Origin: Acidobacteriota bacterium
GTDB lineage: Bacteria > Actinomycetota > Acidimicrobiia > Acidimicrobiales > RAAP-2
DNA length: 33,990 nucleotides
Direction: 5' to 3'
NCBI GenBank assembly: GCA_019352075.1
Contig: JABBOA010000007.1
Coordinates: forward strand, 1 to 33,990
Positions 1,088 through 4,374 of the stretch are shown in pieces. The notes under the pieces were generated by a model. That model was not told the origin of the DNA, ran no database searches, and worked only from the letters and a program-made list of their open reading frames with translations. The first letter of the stretch is position 1, and every line of letters starts with the position of its first letter. The position numbers and the translations under genes were made by a program.

Positions 1088-1109
1088 GTGTCGCGTGATA
1101 GGTAGCACG

Positions 1110-1136
1110 ATGACTAAGTGGTGGTGGCCGCTGTAG
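1110..1136 (+). CDS. Trp leader peptide MTKWWWPL (possible in-frame upstream start at 1086 giving MCRVIGSTMTKWWWPL)
   Basis: ATG ACT AAG TGG TGG TGG CCG CTG TAG: three consecutive Trp codons directly upstream of mutually exclusive hairpins and trpS. Confidence 0.88.
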   Translation: MTKWWWPL

Positions 1137-1197
1137 AGCGGTCCGCCTCTGTCGTGTTGCGCAAGGGACCGCCTTCGGGGGGTCCCTTTCTGCTTCT
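1126..1197 (+). promoter_or_regulatory. Ribosome-mediated transcription attenuator of trpS
   Basis: 1:2 pairing 1126-1132/1137-1143; antiterminator GCGGTCC (1138-1144) with GGACCGC (1166-1172); terminator AAGGGACC (1163-1170) with GGTCCCTT (1181-1188). Confidence 0.88.
1163..1197 (+). terminator. Attenuator terminator hairpin (segment 3:4)
   Basis: AAGGGACC-G-CC-TTCG-GG-G-GGTCCCTT followed by pyrimidine-rich TCTGCTTCT. Confidence 0.8.
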
Positions 1198-2515: not shown

Positions 2516-2743
2516 TCGCGACTCAACCTCGTCGAGGTGTTCTTTGGCATCACCACTCGACGAGCCATTCGAAGAGGATCCTCCGTGAGGGTGAAGGAGC
2601 TGGTCACCGCCATAACTCAGTTCATCGATCGGTGGATCGACCGAGGTCACCCCTTCGTGTGGACCAAGACGGCCGAGCAGATCCTTCCCCATGCACAACG
2701 TCAACCAACGTCAGACCCGCGACACCAGAAGAAGCAACGCTGA
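2516..2743 (+). pseudogene. IS630-family transposase C-terminal remnant
   Basis: SRLNLVEVFFGITTRRAIRRGSSVRVKELVTAITQFIDRWIDRGHPFVWTKTAEQILPHA matches the DDE C-terminal region of IS630 transposases (LNLVEVFFG...PFVWTKTADEI); N-terminal part absent. Confidence 0.8.
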
Positions 2744-3549: not shown

Positions 3550-4374
3550 TTACGACGCGCGGGGGGGTGCCCCCTGCCCGGATCCACCCTCGGCCGCGGC
3601 GACGGAGATGTCGTCACCGCCCGGGCCGCGCAGCACCTCGGCGATGACGACCGCGAGGACGGCTCCCGCGATCGGACCCACCGCGTAGACCCAGTAATCA
3701 AAAAAGTTCGACGCGATCAGGTCTGGACCGAAGGTCCTCGCCGGGTTCATCGAGGCTCCCGACAGCGGACTGGCCCACAGACCCGCGAGGGCGATATAGC
3801 CTCCCACGGCGAAAGCGCCGAGGACGCCCACGTTCTGCGCACCCGAAGCGGTGCCGAGAATGACGCTGACGAGACCCGCGGTCAAGACCAACTCCATCCA
3901 CATGGCGGAGGTGGCGGAGTGGGCGAGGGCTGGATAGTTGGCTCCGTAGAAGGACGAAACGTGCAGCACGGAGTGCAGGAAGACCGCGGCGAGGACGGCG
4001 CCAACGAACTGAACGATGACGTAGCCGGGCACGCGCCGCCACGGGAAGTCGCCGCGAAGGGCGAAGGCGAAGCTGACCACGGGGTTGAGGTGCGCTCCAC
4101 TCACCTTGCCCATGAACAAGATGACCGCCATGACCATGAGGCCGGGTGCGACCACGGCGGAGGAGCGTCCCACGGTGCCCGGAAACGCCGTGTTCATCAT
4201 GCCCGCACCTGCGGCGACCAGGACGAGGAAGAAGGTACCGAGCAGTTCTGAGAACAGGCGCCGCCACTCTTGGCGGGGATCGTGGAAGTTCACGGCACCC
4301 TGGTGGGCGTCGCGCACGTGCGAATCGTGAGAACCCGACGTGTCCACCGATCTACGAGCGTTCATCCTCACCAC
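3550..4374 (-). CDS. MIP-family aquaporin/glycerol channel
   Basis: Six-TM pattern with AHLNPVVSFAFALRG (NPV variant of first NPA box) and SMNPARTFGPDL. Confidence 0.92.
   Translation of the reverse strand: MVRMNARRSVDTSGSHDSHVRDAHQGAVNFHDPRQEWRRLFSELLGTFFLVLVAAGAGMMNTAFPGTVGRSSAVVAPGLMVMAVILFMGKVSGAHLNPVVSFAFALRGDFPWRRVPGYVIVQFVGAVLAAVFLHSVLHVSSFYGANYPALAHSATSAMWMELVLTAGLVSVILGTASGAQNVGVLGAFAVGGYIALAGLWASPLSGASMNPARTFGPDLIASNFFDYWVYAVGPIAGAVLAVVIAEVLRGPGGDDISVAAAEGGSGQGAPPRAS

Follow-up and report, generated by a model that had tools for sequence, protein, structure and literature searches.

Ribosome-mediated attenuation upstream of an auxiliary tryptophanyl-tRNA synthetase (TrpRS) gene has been described in Streptomyces. 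According to the papers in which this work is cited (PMC9437257 and PMC4787780), S. coelicolor has an indolmycin-resistant second TrpRS, and an auxiliary antibiotic-resistant TrpRS gene is under ribosome-mediated attenuation (Kitabatake 2002; Vecchione and Sello 2009, 2010), the attenuator being that of the auxiliary indolmycin-resistant trpRS1 (Vecchione and Sello 2010, J Bacteriol 192:3565, as cited in PMC4787780). In S. lividans, RNA-seq identified an attenuator with a leaderless peptide of 13 aa at trpL2/trpS (PMC8079986), and in S. avermitilis a classical attenuator was predicted before the second trpS (trpS2; Seliverstov et al. 2005, PMC1262725). The sequence-only reading of the stretch of DNA analysed here (33,990 nt, hereafter the window), which proposed a Trp-codon attenuator ahead of a trpS gene, had noted that such elements are known in some Streptomyces, and the S. 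avermitilis prediction (PMC1262725) and the S. lividans RNA-seq data (PMC8079986) bear this out. That is, Streptomyces already provides examples of such a switch, and what is new here is its presence in a distant actinobacterial class, the Acidimicrobiia.

With S. coelicolor trpRS1 and S. lividans trpL2 the window locus shares a leader of 12-13 codons that is predicted to be leaderless and has Trp near codon 9-10, a second TrpRS of like type encoded downstream, and the 1:2/2:3/3:4 layout of competing pairings, the last as judged from the Streptomycetaceae loci of the present analysis. It differs from them in having three Trp codons rather than one or two, in two traits of the window clade, namely an extra U-A pair in segments 2, 3 and 4 and a leader ending in WWWP(L/Q), and in its location in Acidimicrobiia, beside IS630 remains. 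As at S. avermitilis trpS2, a classical attenuator precedes a second trpS, but that study reported Streptomyces only and no other actinobacterial class. Tandem Trp codons and competing hairpins also characterize E. coli trpL and the Corynebacterium and Streptomyces trpE leaders; unlike these, the window element would control an aminoacyl-tRNA synthetase gene and not biosynthesis, and it gave no Rfam match beyond chance. A T-box or other Rfam family was considered and rejected on the same grounds, since no match to a T-box fold or specifier loop was found at the gathering score and the hits with E up to 5 were chance microRNA hits only. Our main reading, to which we give a probability of roughly 0.9, is that the element regulates an auxiliary trpS by ribosome-mediated transcription attenuation. 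It combines features of trp-type attenuators (an ORF with tandem Trp codons, mutually exclusive pairings with covariation, and a downstream gene, trpS, of the metabolism of the same amino acid) with those of the auxiliary TrpRS1 type (a second trpS in the genome, membership of the Streptomyces auxiliary clade, and absence of the active-site His associated with indolmycin sensitivity).

Inspection of the sequence readily gives the Trp-rich frame, ATG ACT AAG TGG TGG TGG CCG CTG TAG (1110-1136), which had been taken as a complete 8-codon peptide, MTKWWWPL. However, ATG 1110 is also codon 6 of a longer frame that begins, in phase, with GTG 1095 (1095-1136, + strand; VIGSTMTKWWWPL, 13 codons), and in which the Trp residues are codons 9-11 (1119-1127) and the stop codon is at 1134-1136. 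GTG 1095 lies 7 nt 3′ of a -10 promoter box, TACTAT (TAnnnT; 1082-1087, + strand), and the two closest relatives, loci L032 and L033, have an ATG at the exactly equivalent place, with the box reading TACCAT and TAGCAT, respectively, and the spacing kept. No -35 box was identified upstream of the window's leader. From this arrangement the predicted transcription start would be 1095 or an adjoining nucleotide, the leader most likely starts, leaderless, at GTG 1095, and ATG 1110 is probably an internal Met. The alternative is that the attenuator works as described, but with the 8-codon peptide translated from ATG 1110 after a 15-nt untranslated leader. The ATG at codon 6 is indeed conserved in the three closest loci (L001, L032 and L033), in which codons 6-12 are kept and codons 2-5 are not, so that translation could start there instead, and an AGG is located 8-10 nt 5′ of it in the window. 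We nevertheless regard this start as unlikely, since these three loci likewise all keep a start codon at 1095 or the matching position, 7 nt from the -10 box; an ATG occupies the equivalent position in 79 of the 82 leader-bearing loci described below, and the internal ATG is absent from most families; a length of 12-13 codons with Trp at codon 9 fits the longer frame only; and S. lividans trpL2 is leaderless, with 13 aa (PMC8079986). The very short peptide, earlier singled out as a special trait, would then most likely be a 13-codon leader with Trp from codon 9, which is the standard layout of the family.

The attenuator as a whole had been placed at 1110-1197, and every element listed for it is present, each of the three proposed pairings being exact: 1:2 joins GGCCGCT (1126-1132) and AGCGGTC (1137-1143), 2:3 joins GCGGTCC (1138-1144) and GGACCGC (1166-1172), and 3:4 joins AAGGGACC (1163-1170) and GGTCCCTT (1181-1188). 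On the + strand, segment 1 (1126-1132) overlaps the last Trp codon and the end of the leader ORF, segment 2 (AGCGGTCC, 1137-1144) can pair with either segment 1 or segment 3, and segment 3 (AAGGGACCGC, 1163-1172) with either segment 2, as antiterminator, or segment 4, as terminator; segment 4 (1181-1188) forms the 3′ arm of the terminator hairpin and is followed by a short U-rich tail (TTTCTGCTTCTCT). For the 1:2 hairpin the stem stands as drawn, but the structure is longer, since 1102-1111 (+ strand, codons 3-6) pairs with 1151-1160 in the minimum free energy structure and extends the 1:2 domain to just 5′ of segment 3. A similar 5′ extension appears in the folds of L032, L033, L038 and L049.

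For the region 1100-1200 the folding energy is -53.8 kcal/mol, whereas shuffles average -36.9 (z = -4.7; none of 200 shuffles as good), with stem energies in isolation of -11.1 (1:2), -15.2 (2:3) and -18.5 kcal/mol (3:4); the 2:3 pairing was matched by only 1% of linker shuffles. To mimic ribosome stalling at the Trp codons, 1095-1133 was masked, and a partial transcript ending at 1172 then adopted 2:3; with the mask extended to 1148, as for a ribosome that has reached the stop codon, a transcript ending at 1184 adopted 3:4. In the full-length RNA at equilibrium, 3:4 beat 2:3 even with segment 1 masked, which means that the decision of the switch must be kinetic and made during transcription. 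In attenuators of the trp type in general, the decision is made during transcription. The terminator hairpin is strong (-18.5 kcal/mol), with a U-tract that is short and interrupted in the window and almost lacking in L038 and L040; termination could therefore be weak or partly factor-dependent.

According to the attenuation model, transcription would begin at about 1095 and the nascent RNA would be translated from its first codon into a 13-residue leader with three consecutive Trp codons. With plentiful Trp-tRNA, the ribosome would reach the stop codon at 1134-1136 and cover segment 2, so that 3:4 would form and transcription would end near 1190. When Trp-tRNA is scarce, either through Trp starvation or because the main TrpRS is poisoned by an indolmycin-like inhibitor, the ribosome would stall at 1119-1127 and cover segment 1, 2:3 would form and block 3:4, and trpS would be transcribed. 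The switch would thus bring in a spare synthetase when the main TrpRS cannot keep up.

The leader is conserved in relatives. L032 and L033 encode the two nearest relatives of the window TrpRS (80-82% protein identity), and in both loci the WWW codons, the position of the stop codon, the three stems and the spacing from the -10 box are preserved; compared with the window, the Trp codons, the CCG and the stop are unchanged and the Thr codon varies synonymously (ACT/ACG/ACC). Loss of the WWW codons or of the alternative stems in relatives had been named beforehand as evidence against an attenuator, and both are conserved in these two loci. More distant trpS genes (L038, L040, L041, L068, Microbacteriaceae and Streptomycetaceae) have the same layout with other sequences. 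A leader was scored when a TAnnnT box was followed, after 6-9 nt, by an ATG or GTG and then by 11-20 codons with two Trp codons at most one codon apart, and 82 of 156 trpS upstream regions carry one, as compared with 1 of 3120 shuffled regions. Among these 82 loci, the leader has 12-13 codons in 74, the first Trp is at codon 9 in 65, and the gap to the box is 6-7 nt in 80. Covariation in related trpS upstream regions, which had been proposed as a check, was counted on an alignment that was not fitted to the structure, with slid registers as control and the four sequences with the extra pair left out. Both 2:3 and 3:4 covary: stem 2:3 was 97% paired in register, with 18 double-change cells, versus 23-61% in the slid registers, and stem 3:4 was 100% paired versus 16-56%. 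The extra U-A pair of the window clade has been gained jointly in segments 2, 3 and 4, and the design covaries across the 82 leader-bearing loci.

These data also bear on the reading that the hairpin simply terminates a transcript from upstream and that the WWW ORF arose by chance. The 3:4 hairpin alone would look identical in that case, and WWW-type ORFs do occur in large genomes. However, the conservation of ORF, stems and spacing in 82 loci, the absence of the leader from 39 housekeeping and 27 mostly sole-copy trpS genes, the rarity of the layout among shuffles, the covariation of 2:3, a pairing for which a simple terminator has no use, and the lack of a convincing gene in the degraded region 5′ of the leader together make this reading extremely improbable.

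Three observations on the relatives may be added. Upstream of position 2501 in L037, the terminator and Shine-Dalgarno region are near-identical to those of L038, but the leader ORF has been lost through divergence of the sequence further upstream, as if recombined. L041 carries a TrpRS attenuator (1948-2038; MSSPTVRCCWRWPLLLRPR) on a 4.1-kb contig filed as Acidobacteriaceae, representing either transfer beyond Actinomycetota or a misbinned contig. Finally, many Streptomycetaceae leaders (e.g. L107 and L128) repeat, in the stretch from terminator to trpS, the motif of segment 2/4 (GGACGGCC) or that of segment 3 (GGGCCGTCC), and these extra copies could pair with segment 3 or 4.

Between the terminator and the gene lies the trpS Shine-Dalgarno sequence, AGGAGG (1231-1236, + strand), over which a possible hairpin of uncertain role can be drawn (1209-1236, + strand; CCTCCTGA 1209-1216 with TCAGGAGG 1229-1236). 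This raises the possibility of a second, translational layer, in which formation of 2:3 would free segment 4 (TCGGGGGG, 1175-1182) to pair with CCTCCTGA (1209-1216) and so unmask the Shine-Dalgarno sequence. The 4:5 pairing is strong in isolation (-24.5 kcal/mol) and is seen in the forced-ON fold of L033, and masking of the Shine-Dalgarno sequence is stronger than in shuffles for L032 and L033, with L037 and L038 lying near 5%. In the window itself, however, masking is no better than in shuffles (0.55) and the forced-ON fold frees the Shine-Dalgarno sequence only slightly (from 0.16 to 0.32), and in L038, L041 and L068 it is equally masked in both states. Constrained folding and shuffles thus lend no support in the window to a two-layer transcription and translation lock, and we consider a translational layer improbable.

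The gene downstream of the attenuator had been identified as trpS, and its product (1244-2314, + strand; 356 aa) matches TIGR00233 with 234 bits. The same genome has a second trpS on contig C48, which encodes a housekeeping TrpRS 36% identical to the window enzyme and is not preceded by a Trp leader. In the phylogenetic tree, the window enzyme groups with those of L032, L033, L037 and L038 inside the large clade that also holds the Streptomycetaceae enzymes, far from the housekeeping TrpRS. His43 of the Geobacillus TrpRS has been implicated in indolmycin sensitivity, its replacement by Asn leading to resistance (PMC4899734). The window TrpRS has Gln where the housekeeping copy of its own genome has this indolmycin-linked His; Gln occupies the position in 76 of the 76 window-type enzymes tallied and His in 35 of the 35 housekeeping enzymes. 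The likeness to the auxiliary antibiotic-resistant TrpRS of Streptomyces that had been suggested is thus apt, the window gene being a second copy of that type, and its product is a second TrpRS of the Streptomyces indolmycin-resistant type and may itself be resistant. The auxiliary enzyme might instead serve another purpose, such as Trp nitration together with a bacterial NO synthase. Its best solved-structure match is 1yi8/2a4m, which we take to be Deinococcus radiodurans TrpRS II. A role in nitration is known for Deinococcus TrpRS II (PMC9437257). The NO-synthase oxygenase domain PF02898 was, however, not found in the window's own genome (91% complete), in a search whose control found it in Bacillus subtilis, and a nitration role therefore appears doubtful.

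Presence of the leader was compared with the number of trpS copies. It precedes 69 of the 71 Streptomycetaceae trpS genes, one of the two exceptions (L095) having a single-Trp version (MHRSSCPCWRRSS). None of 39 housekeeping trpS genes has it, nor does any of 27 window-type genes from the phylum set, which are mostly sole copies. A second trpS is present in the window's own genome and in those of L032, L033, L037, L038, L040 and L041, and every leader-bearing genome checked had two TrpRS. Conversely, genomes with the window-type enzyme as sole TrpRS (e.g. G513, G707, G764, G716, G689 and G1117) are without leader; the second matches at E 1e-6 to 1e-8 in some genomes look, by length and score, like TyrRS. 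The leader therefore tracks the auxiliary status of the trpS copy, and genes for this enzyme that stand alone in a genome have none. This rule is imperfect, since in G802 and G804, each with two trpS copies, the window-type gene lacks a leader. Actinokineospora inagensis shows the reverse assignment, with a WW leader and attenuator (MMRTLDVNQWWGPNRRP) at the His-type copy (L090, 1362-1415) and no leader at the window-type copy (L039).

The window-type trpS is patchily distributed around its host. It was not found elsewhere in the relatives set, which comprises 60 further genomes (36 from the same genus) whose TrpRS are all approximately 34-44% identical to it, and at E <= 1e-60 a sample of 395 genomes of the class gave none except one match of 41% identity. 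With a covariance model of the attenuator family, which had been trained on the window site too, the window attenuator was the only clear case in the 395 sampled class genomes. The model also gave weak matches in other Acidimicrobiia (E 3e-4 to 0.01); the 11 inspected had no WW leader, and we ascribe these matches to chance resemblance of GC-rich sequence. Among the papers searched, none reported such an attenuator in Acidimicrobiia. The contig does belong to the genus, as judged from an aquaporin-like gene (3550-4374) that is 73% identical in two same-genus genomes. L032 and L033 come from close kin of the host, their housekeeping TrpRS being 86% identical to that of the window's own genome, and the downstream neighbours of trpS differ in these two loci.

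Just 3′ of the window trpS, a remnant of an IS630-family transposase, its C-terminal portion, is encoded at 2522-2698 (+ strand), with 57-66% identity to plasmid copies; among the plasmid matches listed, two are annotated IS630. A weak trace of HTH_32 (E 0.025, below the cut-off) was seen upstream, at approximately 385-477. Fragments of a decayed insertion sequence may therefore flank the trpS cassette on both sides. Its patchy distribution, the differences in neighbouring genes and the IS remains together suggest gain of trpS by transfer with sporadic loss, and the window trpS was probably acquired horizontally. The window-type trpS also occurs on plasmids of Streptomyces, Rhodococcus and Microbacterium (records H9, H15, H16 and H17), consistent with mobility; no copy was found in the viral contigs searched. 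We tentatively propose, at somewhat less than even odds, that attenuator and resistant TrpRS travel together between lineages as a self-contained, inhibitor-responsive resistance unit, which would need only the host ribosome to sense the loss of Trp-tRNA, and that the leader is lost once the enzyme has become the only TrpRS.

The locus widens the known range of this regulated spare-synthetase system from Streptomyces to include Acidimicrobiia and several uncultured lineages. The comparison further yields a simple testable rule, with a Trp leader before the auxiliary copy and none where the same enzyme is the only copy, and a leader of such layout can serve as a genomic marker of TrpRS genes that are regulated and probably inhibitor-resistant.
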